Shown one piece after another: positions 2,292 through 15,121 of a DNA stretch of 64,000 nucleotides (position 1 is the stretch's first letter; each line of letters begins with the position of its first letter). The translations under genes were made by a program, and so were the position numbers. This DNA comes from Vulcanimicrobiota bacterium (GTDB taxonomy: Bacteria > Vulcanimicrobiota > Vulcanimicrobiia > Vulcanimicrobiales > Vulcanimicrobiaceae): the NCBI GenBank assembly GCA_019232905.1, contig JAFANA010000098.1:1-64000 (forward strand), in the 5' to 3' direction. Under the pieces are notes generated by a model that was given only the letters and a program-made list of their open reading frames with translations, did not search any database and was not told where the DNA came from.

Positions 2292-3551
2292 GTGAGAGAA
2301 ATAGCGCGCATCACAGCGATCGTCGGTGAAAGTTACACTCAATACTACACCGCTCACCGAGCGCTTCGCGAAGCAAATCTATCCACGTACGCTTTGCAAC
2401 TGCTGGCGGATTTTGCTGCGCTTCCAAAGGAAGGGCTTCGCTCGCAAACAGCGGCGGCTTGCGCATTTGCATCGATGCCTCGTAATGCTGAGGCGCTTTT
2501 AACCGAAGGTCGCAAAGAATCAAGTGTAGCCGGCGTCGTCGCGCGCGCGACAGTTTGCGCGCACCGTGGTGAATGGCGCACCGCAACTCAGCTTTTTCAC
2601 GAGGCAGCCGCGCGTCGCATCGAAGTTGAACCGGCGTACAGCCTCGCTGTGTTGGTACACACTTCGCGCTACCTCTTGTATCGGGGATCCTACGCCGAAG
2701 CGGCGCAACACCTTGACGCTGCTGCCGCCGAAGCAACGGCAACCTTGCCGCATTGGCAACAGGTAATTGCGCTCTTCCAGTGCGAACTCGCCGCGCGCCG
2801 CGGTGAGCAAGCACGCGCTCAGTTCCACATCGCTCGCTCGATCGCAACCGATGCGCACATCTTTCCGCAAGAGGCCGTCGCGCGCGCAACCCTCTGCGCA
2901 GCGCTCGACGACATGGCCGGACGGCTGCACCATGCCACGCCGGCGCTCGCATCCGAAGCATTGGATCGCGCGCAGCCGGTGATTGCGGCGTCGCTGCTCC
3001 ATCTCGCGTCATTTGAACCGCCTGAATGGAATGACACGATCTTCTGCCGCCTCGTACAGCGAACGATCAGCATGCTCTCTAGCGACCTTGCGGCGCTGCC
3101 GTTTCTCAGCACTGTTGCTCGACAATGTTGCAGCAGCCACAGTTCGATCGCGTCCGCCCGTCTCGATGCGGCCGCGGCGCACGACGATGCGCCGGCGCCT
3201 GCGGCGTTTGCCGCGCTTGCTCGAGCATTTACCGCGCAGCGAGCCGATCGCGCGGACGAGGCCATGGCGCATGCCGAGCGCGCAACGCGTCAATTTCAGG
3301 CGATTGGAGACGACCTCTACGCGCGCAAGGCGATGGATTTCATCGTTTCGGAACGCCCCCGCACACGCGTGTCGAATTCACCGCCGCCTTTGACGCGGCG
3401 GCAATCCGAAATCGTCGCACTGGTACAACGCGGTCTTTCCAACAAAGAAATCGCCATACACCTGCACATCTCGGAGCATACGGTGGAGCGACATTTGACA
3501 GCGATCTTCACGAAGTTAAATCTCCGCTCGCGCTACCAGCTTCCGCAGTAA
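2292..3551 (+). CDS. LuxR-family transcriptional regulator with TPR-like N-terminal region
   Basis: C-terminal LTRRQSEIVALVQRGLSNKEIAIHLHISEHTVERHLTAIFTKLNLRSRYQL is a LuxR HTH. Confidence 0.9.
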   Translation: MREIARITAIVGESYTQYYTAHRALREANLSTYALQLLADFAALPKEGLRSQTAAACAFASMPRNAEALLTEGRKESSVAGVVARATVCAHRGEWRTATQLFHEAAARRIEVEPAYSLAVLVHTSRYLLYRGSYAEAAQHLDAAAAEATATLPHWQQVIALFQCELAARRGEQARAQFHIARSIATDAHIFPQEAVARATLCAALDDMAGRLHHATPALASEALDRAQPVIAASLLHLASFEPPEWNDTIFCRLVQRTISMLSSDLAALPFLSTVARQCCSSHSSIASARLDAAAAHDDAPAPAAFAALARAFTAQRADRADEAMAHAERATRQFQAIGDDLYARKAMDFIVSERPRTRVSNSPPPLTRRQSEIVALVQRGLSNKEIAIHLHISEHTVERHLTAIFTKLNLRSRYQLPQ

Positions 3552-3684
3552 CGCGGCGTCGGACATTAACGAATCTCAAGGCGCATGGTGGATTCCAGGA
3601 TGTTCTGCGCAAGCACGGTCGTGAGACTCTAAATTCCAGCCCCGTCGCGGTGACGGGCTTCGCACAGTGTAACGAGGAGCAATA

Positions 3685-6600
3685 GTGAGTTGTCGGCTAT
3701 GGCCGGTACGCGCTTTTTTTGTTGTTGCCTTCACCGTTGTCGCCCCGTACATTTCGACGCCGGATGCTCTAGCGGAGAACGCCGGAGTTATCCGGGGCAT
3801 CGCGACGGACCAGAAAACCCACGCGCCTATCCCAAGCGTGCGCGTGACGGCTCGCTCGCCAAGCGCCACCTATTCGGCAATGACGGATGCGCGCGGGGTC
3901 TATGCGTTTCTGTCGGTGATTCCCGACACGTATACGCTCTCGTTCGAACGGAGCGGATATGGACCGGTATCGATTCCAGGCATTACCGTTCTGCCGGGTT
4001 CGAATCAAACGCAAAATGTTGCGCTTACGACCGAATTGCGTACGATCGCGTCGGTGCAGTCCTCGCGCTCGGCCGGAAGCGCATTTCAGCCGGGGATGAC
4101 GGCCGACACGTACACGGTGACGAGCCGGCAGATCACGATGGTCCAAGGGAAGGACTTCAATCCCGATCAGAACTCACTGCTGCGCAGTATTCCGAGCGTG
4201 ACCATCGATAAGAGCGGCACGGTCGCGATTCGCGGCGGCTTTGCATTCGAAGCTGCGTACGAATTCGAAGGTATCGACTACACGACACCAAACGCGAATC
4301 TGCAAAACACGCTGCAGAACATCGCGAACTTCAGCATGCTCAACGGCGTCGGCAGCGTCGAGTTGGTTCCGGGCGGCGGCGATGCGACTCATGGTAACTC
4401 TGGTACCGGGCTCGTCCTCCTCACGGCAAAGCACGGCACGTTTCCGGCATATGCTCGCGTCGACGCCGAAACGTATGTGTACCCGTTTCGCCATCAGCTC
4501 GGCATCGAATCCAGTTGGGCCGATCCGAAGCAACGCATATCCAACTACGCTTCGTTTCTCGGCATTCGGCAAGACTATCAGTACGGCTATCGCGGCACCG
4601 ACGCGGCCACGCTTGGGCCGCGAGGAACAAATGCGGCAACGCTTGGGTCGGCGGTCGACCCGAATCTCGTCTTCTATAGCCCGCAGTTTCTCTCGTCAAA
4701 CGACTTCGTCGACAACCTCATGTGGCGATTCGGTCGCGACCAGCGCGAGCGGCTTCAGTTCTTCATTCAGACCCAGGACATCCATCAACTGCTTGATTAC
4801 GGCGGCTTCTCGAACCTTCAATATATCTCGGGTGGAACGGCCGCCGGCAGTCAGGTAGGAACGTGCGCGCAATATCCTCCACCGCCCGTAGATATCAACG
4901 AAAATTCCGTGCTCCAAAATCTTGCCTGCAACATCATCCCGTTGTATCCCGGACAGCCGGCTCCATACTCGTATGTGACGCAGCCCGATCAGCTTTACAG
5001 CCCGTTTCTCGCGTACAAATTCGAGTACGCAGACTCGCTCTCGAGCAACGCATTGATCACGGCTCGCTTTTTTCGCGCCTTCTCGACGCAGCAGCAAGAG
5101 CTTCCGTCGCAGGGCGTCGAGGCATCACCGTACGGTGGAACGCGAACCGGCGCAGGCATCGACTTCGTCACATCGCTCGGAACCAAACATTTGATTAAGA
5201 GCGGTGTTATTTACGCGTTCTCGAGACCGTTCGGCGACGTATTTAACGCAACGTCCTATACCGCGTTCACCGCGTCTCCGGAATTCGTCATGTATCCGCT
5301 CACGCACAATGGACAGCAGGCCCCGCTTGGTACCGTGCCGCCGAACTTCAATCCGGCGACGCCGCAAGCGGGTTCAGTCGAGATGGATTTTTTCACGCCC
5401 GCTCAGTGCGCGCTGATCGTACAGCCTGTGCCGAGCTGCGGCTATCTTTACTCGTATTTTCCGAACGGCGTCCGCATGCCGCTCGAACACGACGTTCCAA
5501 CCGCCGCGCAACAGACCTACGGCGCGTACGTGCAAGACGACGTGACCTTCAGCGACCGCTGGAAAAGCGAACTCGGGCTACGCCTCGACGGCTATAACTT
5601 CCAAATTCCGCAAGATCCGAGCAATCCGCCCGGCATTGAAGCAACGGCGCACCAGCGCCTCTACGAGCCGCATGCAAGCCTGACGTACACGTTCGGGCGT
5701 CACGATCTCGTGCGCTTCGGCTACGGACGCACGCTTGCGATTCCGCTTCCCTCGCAGCTAGGCGCAAACGTTGATCGAGATGTTTATGCGTCTTTCGTAA
5801 AGGTGCCGTCCTACGATGCCTCAACGGGCGGCCCAGCAATGTACTGCGGGATCAGCGCGAATCAGCTCTGTACCAACTATGCGGATCAGCTCTATTGGTT
5901 AACGCGCGATTATCGCTTCGGCGCGCAGTCGTTGAGCCAGCCGCTCCACGGCGCCACGTTCACCAACTACGATCTTTCGTGGGCGCACGAATTTCCCGAC
6001 GGAAGTTCGCTCAAAATCACGCCGTTTTATCGCCGCGGCTACGATGTGATCGATCAAACCGCGTCGGTCATCGGGTTCAATCCTCAGACCGGCGCGTCGA
6101 TCGTCGGGAATCTCGTCTATTCGAATCTCGGCCAACAGGAAGCAACAGGCGTCGAATTGCTCTACACGCGCGATCGGCCGCTCGGCTTTTCCTATCAGAT
6201 CGGCGCCACCTACATCAATCAATTCGGGAATGAACCGCCGGGGGAATACTTGCTGCCGGCCGCACTCGCTGCGGGGCAGTTGTACCGCTCTCCGGACATC
6301 TCTCCGTTTCAGTTAAACGTTGCCGTCCAATATAAGAACCGGTACGGCCTCCGCATTAATCCGGTCCTCGCCTATAACGTCGGATATCCATACGGCAACG
6401 GATATTACACTGCCGTCTACTGTGGTGGAAAAGCCGTCATCGTTCCGTCGACCGATCTGACCACGCCGTTTCCATCGACCGGCAATTACGTCGATCCTGA
6501 AAATCCCGGAACCTGCACCCAACCAAATATCGCGGCAACACGCGGAAACGTCGATCCCGCCGTCGCCGGCGGTCTGTTGTCACGGGCCTATTTCAATCTC

Positions 6601-6873
6601 GATCTAGTGACGGAATACACGCCTCCCAAGCACACCAACATCACGTTCGGCGTCGCCATTCACAATCTCACGAATTACGTCGACAACGTTCCACAATTTA
6701 ACACGTGTTACGGTGCGCCGGTAGCAACCGGCATACACAACACCACGCTTCCGTGCACCTATAGCGCTCCCGCGTACGCCAATCCCGGATCGAACTTTAA
6801 TACCAATCCTTATGTCGTCTATCCGAACGGCGTACCATTGACCATCAATCTGTACGTGCAGGTGCGCGTATGA
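3685..6873 (+). CDS. TonB-dependent receptor with N-terminal carboxypeptidase-regulatory-like domain
   Basis: 1062 aa; signal peptide, IRGIATDQKTHAPIPSVRVTARSPSATYSAMTDARGVYAF (CarboxypepD_reg), plug-like SLLRSIPSVTIDKSGTVAIRGGFAFE, beta-barrel C-terminus; SD gaggag before GTG start. Confidence 0.9.
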   Translation: MSCRLWPVRAFFVVAFTVVAPYISTPDALAENAGVIRGIATDQKTHAPIPSVRVTARSPSATYSAMTDARGVYAFLSVIPDTYTLSFERSGYGPVSIPGITVLPGSNQTQNVALTTELRTIASVQSSRSAGSAFQPGMTADTYTVTSRQITMVQGKDFNPDQNSLLRSIPSVTIDKSGTVAIRGGFAFEAAYEFEGIDYTTPNANLQNTLQNIANFSMLNGVGSVELVPGGGDATHGNSGTGLVLLTAKHGTFPAYARVDAETYVYPFRHQLGIESSWADPKQRISNYASFLGIRQDYQYGYRGTDAATLGPRGTNAATLGSAVDPNLVFYSPQFLSSNDFVDNLMWRFGRDQRERLQFFIQTQDIHQLLDYGGFSNLQYISGGTAAGSQVGTCAQYPPPPVDINENSVLQNLACNIIPLYPGQPAPYSYVTQPDQLYSPFLAYKFEYADSLSSNALITARFFRAFSTQQQELPSQGVEASPYGGTRTGAGIDFVTSLGTKHLIKSGVIYAFSRPFGDVFNATSYTAFTASPEFVMYPLTHNGQQAPLGTVPPNFNPATPQAGSVEMDFFTPAQCALIVQPVPSCGYLYSYFPNGVRMPLEHDVPTAAQQTYGAYVQDDVTFSDRWKSELGLRLDGYNFQIPQDPSNPPGIEATAHQRLYEPHASLTYTFGRHDLVRFGYGRTLAIPLPSQLGANVDRDVYASFVKVPSYDASTGGPAMYCGISANQLCTNYADQLYWLTRDYRFGAQSLSQPLHGATFTNYDLSWAHEFPDGSSLKITPFYRRGYDVIDQTASVIGFNPQTGASIVGNLVYSNLGQQEATGVELLYTRDRPLGFSYQIGATYINQFGNEPPGEYLLPAALAAGQLYRSPDISPFQLNVAVQYKNRYGLRINPVLAYNVGYPYGNGYYTAVYCGGKAVIVPSTDLTTPFPSTGNYVDPENPGTCTQPNIAATRGNVDPAVAGGLLSRAYFNLDLVTEYTPPKHTNITFGVAIHNLTNYVDNVPQFNTCYGAPVATGIHNTTLPCTYSAPAYANPGSNFNTNPYVVYPNGVPLTINLYVQVRV

Positions 6874-8108
6874 AGCGCGTAACGGCGATTATGTTCGCAC
6901 TGCTCCTTTCCGCGTGCGGGGGAACCAGTGGCGGCAATCAGACGCCGCCCGTTCAAGGGGTCGATCCGGTTGGTTCGAACGTGTTGCAGTTCGCCGTCGG
7001 GATCGCGACGATTTCGCAAAATAACGGTGCAGTTATCTCGCACGGGCTCAATACCGTCGAGACGCTTCGTCAACCTGACGGCCTTTCCGGATTGCTCAAC
7101 GACGCACCGACGATTACCGGGCCGACGACATTTTCGATCTCCACTAGCACGACGGCAAATGCGCCGCTCGTTGCAACGTCTCTGCCCGCAACCGCCGGCG
7201 GGGGCGGCGGGCTCGATGCGGGCGCCGATTTCGGAACGAACCGCATCTCGCAAGCAACGCTTGACGACGGCCAGTACATCCACTTTTTCGGCGGCCCGGG
7301 CTCGAGCGTCGTTCCTACGACCGCGACAAGCGCCGGCGCATTTGGATACGGGTTCTGCCCCTGCAATTCATCGAGCGCTCCGGTCAATGGTACGCCGCAA
7401 CTCTACGTTGCGTACTCGCTGCCGATCTACGGCGGCTCGTCCGTCCTCAGCACGATCGGTATCGCGCAATACTACGGCGGACCACCCGCGTTTCCAGCAA
7501 TTTCGCCGGAAATCGCGCAAGCCGGGTTCACCGGTTACTCGATGGGGTTCACTGATTTCGCCGTAGCGCCCGCGCTGGGTTCATATAGCTTGACTGTGGC
7601 TATTCCGCCGGATGCAACTGCGCCGAACACCAATCCCGGCGCGTCACTCTCCGCGACGGCGCAACTTACCTCATTGGGCGGTCTTCCACTCTTCGCGACA
7701 CCCGCATTCCAAAGCGACGGCAACGGTGGCGGAAGCGTCGCCGTTTCGATCCCCGCCGGAGCGATGGAAGCACTCGTCTTCGTTCAAGCGATCGGGACGC
7801 AGAACTCGACCGCTACGGATTCGTGTACGCTCAGTCACGCGTCGACGTCGTTCTACACGATTCGCGCGAGTGGAATCGGCGCGCAATCGGTCACCCTGCC
7901 GGATACGCTCGGACCACCTGCCACCTCGGGTGCTGCGACGCCCACGTTATGTCACGGGCAGAGTTATGCGGTCTACGCTGCCGGTTTTGACTACCCGGCG
8001 TTCGAAGCAGCGTATCCGCAAAACGTCTCGCAATCGCCGGTTATTACCTCGACGTCCGGGCAGGCCGACATCACCACATCCGACGCGCTTGCGGGTACGT
8101 ATCCATGA
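6870..8108 (+). CDS. lipoprotein of unknown function
   Basis: Lipobox LLLSACGG; ATGA overlap with preceding gene. Confidence 0.8.
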   Translation: MKRVTAIMFALLLSACGGTSGGNQTPPVQGVDPVGSNVLQFAVGIATISQNNGAVISHGLNTVETLRQPDGLSGLLNDAPTITGPTTFSISTSTTANAPLVATSLPATAGGGGGLDAGADFGTNRISQATLDDGQYIHFFGGPGSSVVPTTATSAGAFGYGFCPCNSSSAPVNGTPQLYVAYSLPIYGGSSVLSTIGIAQYYGGPPAFPAISPEIAQAGFTGYSMGFTDFAVAPALGSYSLTVAIPPDATAPNTNPGASLSATAQLTSLGGLPLFATPAFQSDGNGGGSVAVSIPAGAMEALVFVQAIGTQNSTATDSCTLSHASTSFYTIRASGIGAQSVTLPDTLGPPATSGAATPTLCHGQSYAVYAAGFDYPAFEAAYPQNVSQSPVITSTSGQADITTSDALAGTYP

Positions 8109-10105
8109 AACTGACTCGCGTCGCACTTGTGATGCTCGTTGCAATCGTGGCCGCATGCGGCGGTGGCGGAGGCGCGCCGTCCGGTAGCACCGTCGGATAC
8201 GTGCCGTCTCCCGCTCCCGGTGCGTCACTCTCGCCGCAAGCCGTCAACGTGTCCGTTTCGATTCCGCTCGCCGCTGCGCAGCATCGAACGCGCGCATATC
8301 TCTCACCAAACACGCAATCGCTCGTCTTGCAATTGACGTCGGTGAACGGCGTCGCAATACCATCGCAACAATCGACGACGATCGATACGTTTGCAGGCGC
8401 GCCGAATTGCGCACCGGCAGGATCGTCGCTCGTGTGCACGGGCACCGTTACCGGCGCGAACGGAAGCGATGTCTTTTCCGTGACCGCGTACGCGCAACCG
8501 AACGGAACGGGGGGCGTGCTCTCCTCAGGATCGTTCGCCGCGCAGATCGGTACGACGTCAAGCACGCTTTCGATCAACAATGCGGTTTCGCTCACGCTCT
8601 CCGGCGTTATCACTTCGTTGTCGCTGACCGCAAGCCCGTCGACGCTGCTTATAGGATCGCCGTCGTCTGCGAATGTCGTCGTAAACGCGACTGATGCATC
8701 AGGCGCGGTGATCGTCGGGCCGGGTGCCTATACGTCGCCGATCTCGTTGACGTTCACGAACGGAACGTCGGACTTCGGTTTCGTCACCGCATCGAACCCA
8801 TCGCCGCAAAGCGCGCTAGCGCTCACGGCACCGACGACTTCGCTCGCGGTGGCTTACGACGGAAATCCGTCCGTCGCACCCGGAGCGATCAGCGTTCAAG
8901 CACAGACGCAGGGGCCGTCGGGCACGCTTACGAGCAACGCGACGATTGCGGTTCTTCCGGCGACACCCGTTCCGACGAGTACACCGCCTCCGGGATCCGT
9001 CGACATCTACGTCTTGAACGCCGGCGCAACCGGGACGGGCGCTACCGTTACGGAGTACGCGTCGAACGGGAGCGGAAACGTTGCGCCGAGTCGCACCCTC
9101 GCACTGAGTTCGTCCCTGTATGCCGCGGGCTTCGCCGTTGATTCAAGCGGCTCGGTCTACGTCGGATATTACGACAATGCGACGTTTACGCCGGACGCAG
9201 GTGACGAAATTGACGTGTATGCGCCCGCCGCAAGCGGCAATGCGACGCCGGCGCGACGCATTCTCACGGATCCGGTCTCGCAGACGACGCTCGATCCCGG
9301 CGTCATTTGGGTGGACTCGTCAAACCGCATCATCACGCTCGTCGATACGCAACTCGACAATCAAGGCGGTTTATCGGCCGTCGGGATCTATGCTGCCGGT
9401 GCGAACGGTGCCGTTGCACCAACGCATGCGTGGAACTTCGATTACACGCTCGGACCGTACATCAACGGATACAATGCCGGCGGCCAAGGATACATCGGCG
9501 GTCTGACGATGGACGCAGGCGAAAACTTTTACGTCGCGGGCGCGCTGTATAACCTGAACGTTGTCGCCGGAATCTTCGGGGCGAGCGCGGCAGCAGGGAG
9601 CGGCGGCGTCGTACCGATCTCGCGCACGATTCCGAGCGATTCAACGACGACGCTTCCGTCGCCGCCGGACCTTATCACGGGTCTCGCGCTCGACGGCAGC
9701 GGATTCGTTTATGATGCGCAAACGACCGCGCCCGGCGGCGGCGGACCCGGCGCAACGGTAACCGGTGCAATCAACGTTTTTGCACCGGGCGCAACGTCGG
9801 GAACGACCGACACCGCGCCGTTACGCACGATATCTTCAGCTGCACTGAATTCAACGCTGCCCCCATCGGGCACGGAGACGCGGCTGCCGCTCGCGATCTT
9901 CGGCAGCACCATCTACGTTGCAAATCAAGCGCAAAACACGGTGCTCGTTTTTCCAACGAGCGCTTCCGGATCGATCGCGCCTTCGGCGACGATCTCCGGA
10001 TCGTCAACGGCGCTCAATGCGCCGATCGGCATTGCGGTTGCGACGAACGGCGGCACACAACATTCCGGCGCGCGCGTGCGTCCGGAAAAACACCCTCATC
10101 CATGA
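8105..10105 (+). CDS. lipoprotein with C-terminal NHL/beta-propeller-like repeats
   Basis: Lipobox VAACGGGG; repeated VDSSGSVYVGYYD / LDGSGFVYDA-type motifs; ATGA overlap with preceding gene. Confidence 0.75.
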   Translation: MKLTRVALVMLVAIVAACGGGGGAPSGSTVGYVPSPAPGASLSPQAVNVSVSIPLAAAQHRTRAYLSPNTQSLVLQLTSVNGVAIPSQQSTTIDTFAGAPNCAPAGSSLVCTGTVTGANGSDVFSVTAYAQPNGTGGVLSSGSFAAQIGTTSSTLSINNAVSLTLSGVITSLSLTASPSTLLIGSPSSANVVVNATDASGAVIVGPGAYTSPISLTFTNGTSDFGFVTASNPSPQSALALTAPTTSLAVAYDGNPSVAPGAISVQAQTQGPSGTLTSNATIAVLPATPVPTSTPPPGSVDIYVLNAGATGTGATVTEYASNGSGNVAPSRTLALSSSLYAAGFAVDSSGSVYVGYYDNATFTPDAGDEIDVYAPAASGNATPARRILTDPVSQTTLDPGVIWVDSSNRIITLVDTQLDNQGGLSAVGIYAAGANGAVAPTHAWNFDYTLGPYINGYNAGGQGYIGGLTMDAGENFYVAGALYNLNVVAGIFGASAAAGSGGVVPISRTIPSDSTTTLPSPPDLITGLALDGSGFVYDAQTTAPGGGGPGATVTGAINVFAPGATSGTTDTAPLRTISSAALNSTLPPSGTETRLPLAIFGSTIYVANQAQNTVLVFPTSASGSIAPSATISGSSTALNAPIGIAVATNGGTQHSGARVRPEKHPHP

Positions 10106-10123
10106 GAGAGCGAGTACTACCGA

Positions 10124-11560
10124 ATGAGAAAGCACGTACAGGGACTCATCGCGGCAGCCGTACCACTCATTTTTCTGACCGCATGCGGTGGCGGCAACAC
10201 ACCTTCGCCGCTAGTCCCGAGTCAAACGGCGGCCAATCAAGCCTCGGATAATGGCGGAACGGTTTTGCAGCCGCAAGATCTCGGCCCCGCAAGTCTCCAC
10301 GCTGCCGGCGCGACATTCCCGGCGGAAGTCTACAACCTAGCCTCACAGCCGGCCGGTGTGGCGACCGGAGCGCAAGCATTGCCCGGAGCCGGCTCACTGT
10401 TCGCCTCGTACGGCGGAACCGGACACATTTATTACTGCCTCACGGGAAGCGGTTTCGGAAAGAAGATGTTCATCGGCGATAATATTCCCGGTGTGACCGC
10501 ACCGTGCGCAGCGCTCGGCGCCACACCGACAGGCGCAGGCGGCCGGACCGATCCTCTCGATTTCGTCGGTTCCGATCAAGCATTGAAATCGACGGAATAC
10601 GCGGACTTTAAAACAAATCGACTCGCTGCGCACGGTCAACCGTTCGAGTTTCCGTCCGTCGGCGGCCCGATCGTCTTCGGATATAAGCAGACCGATCTTC
10701 CCGGTTTGGGTGCCGCGCGTCTTCGCCTCTCGCGCTGGACCTATTGCGCAATCGCGAACGGCACGGTCAGAAACTGGGACGATGCTGCAATTACGAAAGA
10801 CAACGGCGTATCGGTGACCGGTGGAAAATCGCTCGCCATCACGTTCTTCTATCGCAGCGATAGCAGCGGCACGTCGTTCCTCTTCCAGAATCACCTCAAT
10901 TCCGTCTGCGGAAGTGCGTGGCCGGCTCCCTATAATGCCGCGCCGTATCAGAGCGCAGGACGCAACGCGCAGTGGGGACGCGGTACGAATACGACGTGGC
11001 TTGGGCCCACGACGACCGGCTTCCAAGGCGCATCCGGCAATCCGGGCGTGTTGAACGGCATTCAAAAAACGCTAGGCGCGACCGGCTATGTCGAAGGCGC
11101 GTATGCGGCTCGTTCTGCACGGCCGGTTGTAAGTCAAGCGGTGCTTCGCAATAACGCGGGAGACTTCATCGACCCGACCGTTCCAGCGGATGTCGCGGCG
11201 GCGCTCGCCAACGTTACTTCGCTCAACATCACGTTTGGCGGCGCGTCCGACGGTATTAATCTCGGGACCGTCGGCGACACCCGTACGGATTGCATCCTCT
11301 ACGTCGATCCGAGCCACTTCTCGAATCCGTCCGCGGCAACCGCATACCCGATCGTCGGCATCAGCTATCTGATGTTCAACGGTGCGCATAACACGCATCT
11401 TGCCGACGTCAAACGCCTGGTCAACTTCATCGTCTCACCAACCGGCAACTCGATCACCTCGAAGTTTGAATACTCCCCGCTTAGCTCGAGTATTCAATCG
11501 GTAACACGCGCCGCAGTGAACGGAACCGGATCCTATTCCTTCAAACCGTGCGTGCAATAA
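10124..11560 (+). CDS. PstS-like substrate-binding lipoprotein
   Basis: Lipobox FLTACGGG; LHAAGATFPAEVY, DFVGSDQAL and FYRSDSSGTSFLFQNHL are PstS-type motifs. Confidence 0.85.
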   Translation: MRKHVQGLIAAAVPLIFLTACGGGNTPSPLVPSQTAANQASDNGGTVLQPQDLGPASLHAAGATFPAEVYNLASQPAGVATGAQALPGAGSLFASYGGTGHIYYCLTGSGFGKKMFIGDNIPGVTAPCAALGATPTGAGGRTDPLDFVGSDQALKSTEYADFKTNRLAAHGQPFEFPSVGGPIVFGYKQTDLPGLGAARLRLSRWTYCAIANGTVRNWDDAAITKDNGVSVTGGKSLAITFFYRSDSSGTSFLFQNHLNSVCGSAWPAPYNAAPYQSAGRNAQWGRGTNTTWLGPTTTGFQGASGNPGVLNGIQKTLGATGYVEGAYAARSARPVVSQAVLRNNAGDFIDPTVPADVAAALANVTSLNITFGGASDGINLGTVGDTRTDCILYVDPSHFSNPSAATAYPIVGISYLMFNGAHNTHLADVKRLVNFIVSPTGNSITSKFEYSPLSSSIQSVTRAAVNGTGSYSFKPCVQ

Positions 11561-12384
11561 GCGTCGCTCTTGCGATGCTATTGACGGCCTGCGGCGGTGG
11601 TGTTTCGAGTGCACCGCCGCCGCAGGGCGCCCTTACCGCCAACGTTCGGTTCGTAAACGTTTCCCCCGATGCGGGCGTGCCCGATCCGTCGAATTCGCAA
11701 AACGAACTCATTCTTTTCTCGAGCGCCGCGGCGCAAGTCACCGTTGACAGTGCGCAAGTCGCGACGCTCGCCGGAGACAGCGGACTATCGACGACCTCGG
11801 GCGGCACGACGCCGGTCGTTCCAAGCGTCACCGCATATACGACCATTCCCGCCTCGTCGCATGCAGTTGCCTATGTCGATCCTTCCGCATATACAGCTAG
11901 CGGATTCTTACAGATTTCGACGACGCTGCAGACGATGAAAGCCGGCGGTTACTACACAATCGTGCTTGCCGGATCGTATTGTCTAGGCACGCTGCAGTTC
12001 TATCAATTCGCCGATACGCAAACGACGTCCGGGCGCGTGGTGATGTACAACGTCGCGCCTGACAATCCGGGCGCGATTCAATTCGGCACGTTCCCCACTG
12101 CGACCGGTGCACCGCTCTCTGCGCTCGGAACGGCTGCGCCTGGCGCGCGCGCGGAGGGAAGCATAAGTGCGACCGGCATCGGCGCGTACGCCGGCAGCGG
12201 CGGAACGTTCCAGCTTCTTCCGAGTGCGGTACTAAGTTTCGATACAAACAACGCCGTGCCGTATAACGCGCTCACCACGTTCGCGCTGTTTTATCGCGAC
12301 GGAATTCCCCAAAATGCGAGCAGTGTCGATTGCTCGACGAAAGCGGCGACAACGCCGTTTCTTCAAGGAGCGATGACGAATTGA
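11548..12384 (+). CDS. DUF4397-like lipoprotein
   Basis: Lipobox LLTACGGG; ANVRFVNVSPDAGVPD plus YVDPSAYT..L..T-type pattern; overlaps preceding gene. Confidence 0.7.
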   Translation: MRAISVALAMLLTACGGGVSSAPPPQGALTANVRFVNVSPDAGVPDPSNSQNELILFSSAAAQVTVDSAQVATLAGDSGLSTTSGGTTPVVPSVTAYTTIPASSHAVAYVDPSAYTASGFLQISTTLQTMKAGGYYTIVLAGSYCLGTLQFYQFADTQTTSGRVVMYNVAPDNPGAIQFGTFPTATGAPLSALGTAAPGARAEGSISATGIGAYAGSGGTFQLLPSAVLSFDTNNAVPYNALTTFALFYRDGIPQNASSVDCSTKAATTPFLQGAMTN

Positions 12385-13442
12385 AGCGATGGCTCGTCGC
12401 GCTCGCCCTTTTGGCCGCAGTAGGTTGCGGCGGCGGCAGCGGTTCCGGGCCCGCTCCCGTGCCTACGGCAACCGGTACGCCGTTCGTTCCGCAATCGCCG
12501 AATCCACCGCAGCATCTTTACGTCGGCTACGCGTCGATTCAAAGCGGCTCAGCCGACTACGCGGTCGCCGTTTACCAATTGCCGCTCACATCCGCAAGCG
12601 CGCCGGTCACAGTCTTTCCTGGAGGCAACAATCTGCAAGCGTTCGCGGTCGATGAATATCGCGGTACGATCGCGGAAGTCGTCGGATCAGGCACGTTCGG
12701 TGTCGCGACGTTGGAAATCGTTCCCTCGATCGGCTCACCGGCGGCTGTCTCGATTCCGCCCGGACCGGCAACTTTGCAGGCAGCGCTTGCGGGGGCGATG
12801 GATTTCGATCCGGGCGGAAATCTCTGGATCCCGACGACGCAAGACCTACGGGAATTTTCGCCGCCCTTTCAAACGTACAGCACGGTCGCAACCGTTATTC
12901 CAAACGGCGTTCCGTCAACATCGTACGCAAATTTTGTCGCGGGCTTTCCGCAGTTCGATCCGTCAGGAACGATGTACGTCAGCACACCGGGTGCGCTTTT
13001 TACATTCAGTCCGCCCGCGTTTTCAGCGGGACCGAAGCGCATTGCACCCGGCTTTACGTTCGGTCAATTCGCGTTCGACGGTTTGGGAAACACGATCAGC
13101 ACGTTCAGGTTTCCATCACTGCCGACGCCGGCTCCGAGCGCGACGCCGCTTCCGCAAACCGGGCTCGGTGTTTTTTCCTTACCGCTTTCCTCGCTGAGTA
13201 CGCCGCAGTTTCTCCTATCGCCGCCCGACATACCCTCAAATTTGAGCGCATTTACGAGCGATGAAATCGGGGGCATCGGGAACGTCTACATCGGCGACTC
13301 CGCTGACGGCTCGATCTTCGTCTATCCCTTGCCGCTCACGCCGTCGTCGACGCCGGCGTTACACGTACCATGTCCCGCGCAACTCGCGGCGCGCTGCACG
13401 GCTCCCACGCTTGCGTACTTAACCTTCTACGTGGGGCCTTGA
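12381..13442 (+). CDS. beta-propeller-like lipoprotein
   Basis: TTG start overlapping upstream TGA gives LKRWLVALALLAAVGCGGG lipobox; FDPGGNLWIPTT and FDPSGTMYVSTPG repeats. Confidence 0.7.
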   Translation: MKRWLVALALLAAVGCGGGSGSGPAPVPTATGTPFVPQSPNPPQHLYVGYASIQSGSADYAVAVYQLPLTSASAPVTVFPGGNNLQAFAVDEYRGTIAEVVGSGTFGVATLEIVPSIGSPAAVSIPPGPATLQAALAGAMDFDPGGNLWIPTTQDLREFSPPFQTYSTVATVIPNGVPSTSYANFVAGFPQFDPSGTMYVSTPGALFTFSPPAFSAGPKRIAPGFTFGQFAFDGLGNTISTFRFPSLPTPAPSATPLPQTGLGVFSLPLSSLSTPQFLLSPPDIPSNLSAFTSDEIGGIGNVYIGDSADGSIFVYPLPLTPSSTPALHVPCPAQLAARCTAPTLAYLTFYVGP

Positions 13443-14356: not shown

Positions 14357-14429
14357 GGGGACGTAGCTCAGCTGGTAGAGCGCCTGCTTTGCAAGCAGGA
14401 TGTCAGGGGTTCGAGTCCCCTCGTCTCCA
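14357..14429 (+). tRNA. tRNA-Ala(TGC)
   Basis: Cloverleaf GGGGACG...CGTCTCCA, anticodon loop TTTGCAA, T-arm GGGGTTCGAGTCCCC. Confidence 0.97.
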
Positions 14430-14436
14430 GAATTCC

Positions 14437-14473
14437 GAAAAGCTTTGCAATTGCAGAGCTTTTCTTTATTTTA
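14437..14473 (+). terminator. Rho-independent terminator after tRNA-Ala
   Basis: 12-bp stem gaaaagctttgc/gcagagcttttc with aatt loop, then tttatttt. Confidence 0.85.
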
Positions 14474-14566
14474 ATGAATTTTGATAGTGTAGAACTTAAA
14501 GGAAACGAATCGCGCTCCGCAAATAAGGGCGGGTCGCTCCGTCGTTAGTCGCGGTTGGGAAATTTT

Positions 14567-14642
14567 GGGGGCATAGCTCAGCTGGTAGAGCATCACGCTG
14601 GCAGCGTGAGGGTCAGGAGTTCGAGTCTCCTTGCCTCCACCA
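14567..14642 (+). tRNA. tRNA-Ala(GGC), CCA encoded
   Basis: Acceptor GGGGGCA/TGCCTCC, anticodon loop CTGGCAG, encoded CCA. Confidence 0.96.
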
Positions 14643-14655
14643 TTCGTTTCTTAAC

Positions 14656-14684
14656 AAGCCCGAAAGCAATCGGGCTTTTTGTTT
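14656..14684 (+). terminator. Rho-independent terminator after tRNA-Ala
   Basis: aagcccg/cgggctt stem followed by T-rich tract. Confidence 0.8.
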
Positions 14685-14723
14685 TCCCGCCCGGCAGGCA
14701 AACGCACGTGCTATACTTCGTGA

Positions 14724-15100
14724 GCGAAGTACGCCGGGTGACCGCGCTCGTTCCGCATCAGCGGGATGGTGAGGAAAGTCCGGGCTTCACAGGGCAAGGT
14801 GCAGGATAACGTCCTGTCGGCGCAAGTCGAAGGAAAGTGCCACAGAAACATACCGCCCGCCGCGCTCGTCGCGGCGAGCAAGGGTGAAATCGTGAGGTAA
14901 GAGCTCACGGAGTTCCACGGTGACGTGGACTCGGGTAAACCCCACCTGAAGCAAGATCGCTCGATACGCACCGTAAGGTGCCGGATTGCCCGTCCGTGCG
15001 AGCCACATCGCATTGAGGTGCGCGGTGACGCGCACCCCAGAGGGATGGTCGCCGCCGGTGGAAACACCGGTACAGAATCCGGCTTATAGGCGTGCTTCGC
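14724..15100 (+). ncRNA. rnpB: RNase P RNA, bacterial
   Basis: Conserved GAGGAAAGTCCGGGCT, CAGGGCAAGGTGCAGGATAACGTCCTG, GAAAGTGCCACAGAAACATACCGCC and ACAGAATCCGGCTTATAGGC; P1 helix gcgaagtacgcc/ggcgtgcttcgc closes the molecule. Confidence 0.96.
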
Positions 15101-15121
15101 GTGTATCGCCAATCACCGCTC

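Follow-up and report, generated by a model that had tools for sequence, protein, structure and literature searches.

A TonB-dependent receptor and lipoprotein operon of Candidatus Eremiobacterota as a candidate phosphate-linked uptake system

What would a TonB-dependent receptor (TBDT) do together with a run of five lipoprotein genes in a bacterium outside the Bacteroidota? According to one paper, TonB-dependent transporters capped by lipoproteins seem to be restricted to Bacteroidetes (PMC10404256). The locus considered here lies in a window of 64,000 nucleotides, the whole stretch of DNA that was analysed, whose relatives are Candidatus Eremiobacterota MAGs. The Eremiobacterota are a little-studied group of soil bacteria, and the design of the gate encoded in the window recalls Bacteroidota uptake machines, with a partner lipoprotein, A, of no known family. 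A literature search on TonB-dependent receptors in Eremiobacterota returned nothing on the present locus. The home genome is a 3.29-Mb assembly in 144 contigs, 83% complete, and the home-genome counts given below derive from searches of its contigs.

The six ORFs originally proposed between 3685 and 13442 were all recovered on the + strand, namely a TBDT gene followed by lipoprotein genes A to E. The lipoprotein signals were likewise verified, with LSAC-GG in A, VAAC-GG in B, LTAC-GG in both C and D, and AVGC-GG in E. As had been described, four of the five junctions overlap, by 4, 4, 13 and 4 nt: ATGA is shared by TBDT and A (6870-6873) and again by A and B (8105-8108), C and D overlap by 13 nt, and D and E share TTGA (12381-12384). 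B and C are separated by an 18-nt gap, with no overlap. The start of E was placed at the TTG at 12381 and not at the mechanical TTG at 12330, because a 4-nt D/E overlap is possible in every relative having both genes (13/13 loci). A 4-nt TBDT/A overlap is available in 14 loci and a 1-nt overlap in two more, and the 13-nt C/D overlap was seen again in several relatives. Since the D/E, TBDT/A and C/D overlaps recur across relatives, they exceed chance. ABC transporter genes are absent beside the operon, as the original prediction stated.

That prediction described the six genes correctly but overlooked a conserved gene upstream. This same-strand gene (2292-3551, 419 aa) encodes a LuxR-type (GerE HTH) transcriptional regulator matching PF00196 at 58 bits, and because it is conserved, the unit comprises seven genes, with the regulator as the first. 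In relatives, its homologue stands directly 5' of the TBDT or of a C-TBDT block. Ahead of the TBDT (or C-TBDT), a block of the form TTAAC-N16-GGGATGC-N20-TAGCAT is common to 11 relatives and is eroded in the intergenic region of the window (3552-3684, + strand). It could serve the LuxR-type regulator as promoter or operator.

At least 11 other genomes have the order LuxR-TBDT-A-B-C-D-E, variants included, and refutation by lack of co-conservation thus fails. The exact order occurs in G013, G044, G059, G069, G052, G074, G064 and G086. In G089, G010 and G043, C stands ahead of the TBDT; in a second locus of G052, the TBDT-A pair follows B-C-D-E; the loci of G083 and G079 are divided between contigs. 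More distant genomes (G099, G102, G017, G016, G015 and G101) keep TBDT-A, mostly with propeller-type lipoproteins; C is present there as a single gene or as two, and several of these loci also have a gene for a response regulator. A TBDT-A pair is also carried by G009, a complete genome of the same family as the window's host on one contig of 3,508,363 bp, where G+C is 0.64 around the pair vs 0.67-0.70 in the regions sampled. Among cultured bacteria, Vulcanimicrobium alpinum has a genome of 3.50 Mbp with 68.4% G+C (PMC9758169).

The receptor (3685-6873, 1062 aa) has a CarboxypepD_reg extension and a TonB beta-barrel by Pfam, with a plug and a TonB-box-like segment, DTYTVT, read from alignment. 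Its profile matched only scaffoldin in the PDB, through the extension. Lipoprotein A (6870-8108, 412 aa) is tied to such receptors across the class. A profile search of 148 related genomes with A gave matches in 66, all of the same class, and in the loci fetched, 49/52 A genes directly follow a same-strand TBDT; of the other three, one borders a contig end and two stand alone. In a quick FastTree tree of 55 TBDTs, in which some of the non-A rows sit on long branches, the A-linked receptors form one clade with SH-like support of 100, the sole interruption being a tandem TBDT next to an A pair. By these sequence comparisons, TBDT and A are a class-wide conserved pair. The A and TBDT trees also correlate (Spearman 0.65), a value that includes shared species history and is hence no proof of pairing.

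In the home genome, an A gene follows 2 of the 13 TBDT loci examined (two of the 13 are cut by contig ends), namely the window's and one on contig C67. A first A-profile search had returned a single A there, and the second, divergent one, on C67, was recovered only by a broader profile, so further A genes may have been missed elsewhere. This second TBDT-A pair (L139:1836-6817) showed no match to C, D or E in the 9-kb stretch read. A different TBDT-lipoprotein arrangement is present on contig C31 (L146), where three lipoprotein-like ORFs, one of them B-like, lie upstream of another TBDT.

A itself resembles no described family. The window copy had no Pfam match, a Pfam scan of 28 A-family members gave neither SusD nor any other match except one chance hit, and a PDB profile search revealed no convincing relative. 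Kinship with rusticyanin or BamE was rejected, the PDB profile matches being weak, partial or driven by the signal peptide, and an AlphaFold model built from 5 sequences was discarded as too poor (mean pLDDT 36). From its conservation beside the receptor, A is probably a dedicated TBDT partner that acts as a surface lid.

The link to phosphate comes from lipoprotein C (10124-11560, 478 aa). It had been called PstS-like, and this was borne out by a match to PF12849 at 81 bits (cut-off 27) and by profile matches to PDB PstS chains (6e-14); C stays under the PstS equivalog cut-off (TIGR00975, 123 bits vs 205). The window's C retains each of the eight residues that contact phosphate in E. coli PstS (T10, F11, S38, D56, R135, S139, G140 and T141), with a reference sequence and site list that we take to be those of the E. 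coli protein. A long-C gene stands immediately after pstS-pstC-pstA-pstB in G015, where all four pst genes score over their NCBIfam cut-offs. This is the only such case among the loci read, and the window operon has no pstC, pstA or pstB. With the complete site and the G015 locus, the hint of phosphate is stronger than the original prediction judged. On the opposing side, a scan of the operon and its immediate neighbours detected no phosphatase or phosphodiesterase gene, and no PhoB box was identified.

Linkage to C is confined to one branch of the receptors. A subclade of 21 TBDTs (support 100) inside the A-linked clade holds every C-linked locus, and C lies within 9 kb of 19 of them. The other two (G037 and G083) run into contig ends, and the tail of an A gene followed by B-C-D-E lies on a further contig of G083. 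Outside the subclade, C is linked to 0/23 TBDT-A pairs. Two nested evolutionary layers emerge from these sequences, a class-wide TBDT-A pair and, within it, a C-carrying TBDT subclade. The five lipoproteins, which had been described as one set, are unequal partners, A being ancestral and near-obligate with the receptor and C, B, D and E having been added in one branch.

The remaining three lipoproteins were assigned largely at family level. The two members predicted to be propeller-like, B and E, gave family-level, profile or model matches, yet both lack a propeller Pfam match over cut-off. B (8105-10105, 666 aa) falls below the SBBP cut-off in the window; SBBP was matched in 9/9 members of its family and NHL weakly in 7/9. 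The N-terminal half of B is beta-rich, and a structure model of moderate confidence gave Foldseek matches to beta-propellers, which points to a probable C-terminal beta-propeller at about 298-648. E (12381-13442, 353 aa) is a probable NHL-type beta-propeller, as its profile matches designed NHL propellers (Pizza6, 1.4e-7) and PknD. An assignment of E as 'invert_tail' (NF058595) was rejected, the match being below cut-off and confined to the signal region. B and E share no domain by hhalign. For D (11548-12384, 278 aa), the suggested DUF4397 likeness narrowly misses the cut-off in the window copy (28.2 bits against 30.6), and DUF4397 was matched by 6/6 D-family members scanned (best 1e-13).

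The favoured reading of the operon is then an uptake complex of the outer membrane, driven by TonB, that has its own lipoprotein partner and is specialised for a ligand bearing phosphate; judged from sequence, the chances of this reading are evenly balanced. The TBDT would serve as the energised gate of the outer membrane, and A as its dedicated partner and probable surface lid; the near-invariant gene adjacency and the single TBDT clade are observed, the physical complex and surface position inferred. C would be an outer-membrane-anchored PstS-type protein capturing phosphate or a phosphoryl group, and the propellers B and E with the DUF4397-like D may be accessory capture or scaffold lipoproteins. 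A point against this reading is that free phosphate, being small, ordinarily passes through porins, so that the use of a TBDT would imply a larger ligand. TonB, ExbB and ExbD would power import, the Pst system would carry released phosphate inward, and the LuxR-type protein upstream probably controls the unit. Elsewhere in the home genome, ExbD was found three times, PstB (over cut-off) occurs with a PhoB/PhoR-like pair on contig C127, and PstS is on C136. Directly after pstB and this pair, a 547-aa ORF (L098:8339-9982) begins with what resembles a signal peptide, matches no NCBIfam model and is possibly an outer-membrane protein.

The same complex could instead import a substrate unrelated to phosphate, for example a glycan, a peptide or a metal complex, with C a repurposed PstS fold. 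Several C paralogues have lost phosphate-contact residues in part: the solo copies of G069, G089 and G043, the second copies of G052 and G079, and the G083 copy. These paralogues are mostly second copies, and with site residues lost in them, phosphate need not be the ligand throughout. The TBDT-A pair also lacks C in 23 loci, so the ancestral TBDT-A substrate was probably other than phosphate, and propeller and DUF4397 proteins would suit polymer capture as well. Against this, the site is whole in most operon copies of C, the window's included, and the long C of G015 follows pstSCAB; for the window operon, a non-phosphate substrate is rather unlikely, if a serious contender. The solo paralogues (L051, L049 and L060), which have lost several contact residues, adjoin apparent glycine-cleavage genes, judged by eye, and an intact operon copy is present in the same genomes.

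PstS proteins are classically periplasmic, and the lipoproteins might face the periplasm, with the TBDT importing the ligand and C passing released phosphate to a Pst transporter. The sequence here gives no reading of lipoprotein orientation, and ExbD and PstB are present in the home genome. However, structurally solved TBDT-lipoprotein pairs are surface complexes (PMC10404256), and three more bulky propeller and DUF4397 lipoproteins would better suit surface capture; the periplasmic arrangement is improbable. The original prediction had proposed a dedicated outer-surface complex for capture or adhesion. As a conserved module, a dedicated capture complex of the outer membrane has good support from gene order, overlaps, TBDT-A pairing and C-linkage, and nothing positive emerged for adhesion. 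Beta-propellers can bind surfaces, the TBDT is of the CarboxypepD_reg type and a regulator gene adjoins, features that would also fit a role in surface adhesion, in sensing or in Oar-like, TonB-dependent export of proteins. Yet Pfam showed a CarboxypepD_reg extension and no STN signalling domain, and genes for an anti-sigma factor, a protease or a secreted cargo are absent from the unit; such a role in place of nutrient uptake is very improbable.

The phosphate-linked uptake reading can be set beside several known systems. PusCD of Flavobacterium johnsoniae are phosphate-starvation TBDT-lipoprotein complexes (PMC8115612). The window operon would share with them a TBDT and an outer-membrane lipoprotein tied to phosphorus acquisition; it differs in its phylum, in lacking SusC/SusD signatures, and in having a PstS-like lipoprotein where PUS loci have phosphatases. 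In BtuB-BtuG, the vitamin B12 system of Bacteroides, a seven-bladed beta-propeller lipoprotein lids the TBDT (PMC10404256). The window's TBDT likewise has lipoprotein partners, but A, the dedicated one, cannot be recognised as a propeller, B and E come in addition, and the ligand appears phosphate-linked. With the glycan and peptide importers SusCD and RagAB, it shares the CarboxypepD_reg-type extension and a dedicated, directly adjacent lipoprotein gene conserved as a pair. SusC/RagA NCBIfam models gave no match to the window TBDT or 8 relatives, and A has no SusD match by Pfam. Because these SusC and SusD signature tests fail, the TBDT-A pair was not assigned to the SusCD/BtuBG type. With PstS of the Pst ABC transporter, C has in common its fold family and the eight contact positions, but it is longer, an insert separating the S38 and D56 positions, scores below the equivalog level and lies in an operon that has neither permease nor ATPase. 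ElpS (Cc0171) of Caulobacter crescentus is a phosphate-starvation lipoprotein secreted by a type II system (PMC2996285); it is comparable by description as a phosphate-linked lipoprotein with a TBDT gene association, and its type II export sets it apart. By analogy, the present system most likely works like SusCD, BtuBG and PusCD, with another partner family and with C supplying phosphate recognition.

On a wider scale, we tentatively propose that Eremiobacterota evolved lipoprotein-capped TonB importers separately from Bacteroidota, A being a new family of lids, and that one branch recruited an outer-membrane PstS to form an energised phosphate or organophosphate gate; this history is plausible but doubtful. 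If true, a TBDT-lipoprotein pair would be class-wide in another phylum with an unrelated partner, a convergent invention. The C-linked branch could account for phosphorus scavenging by bacteria often abundant in oligotrophic environments, and A, a family of unknown proteins, gains a testable role. The + strand of the window also carries two tRNA genes and a class A RNase P RNA a short way downstream of the operon (14357-15102).
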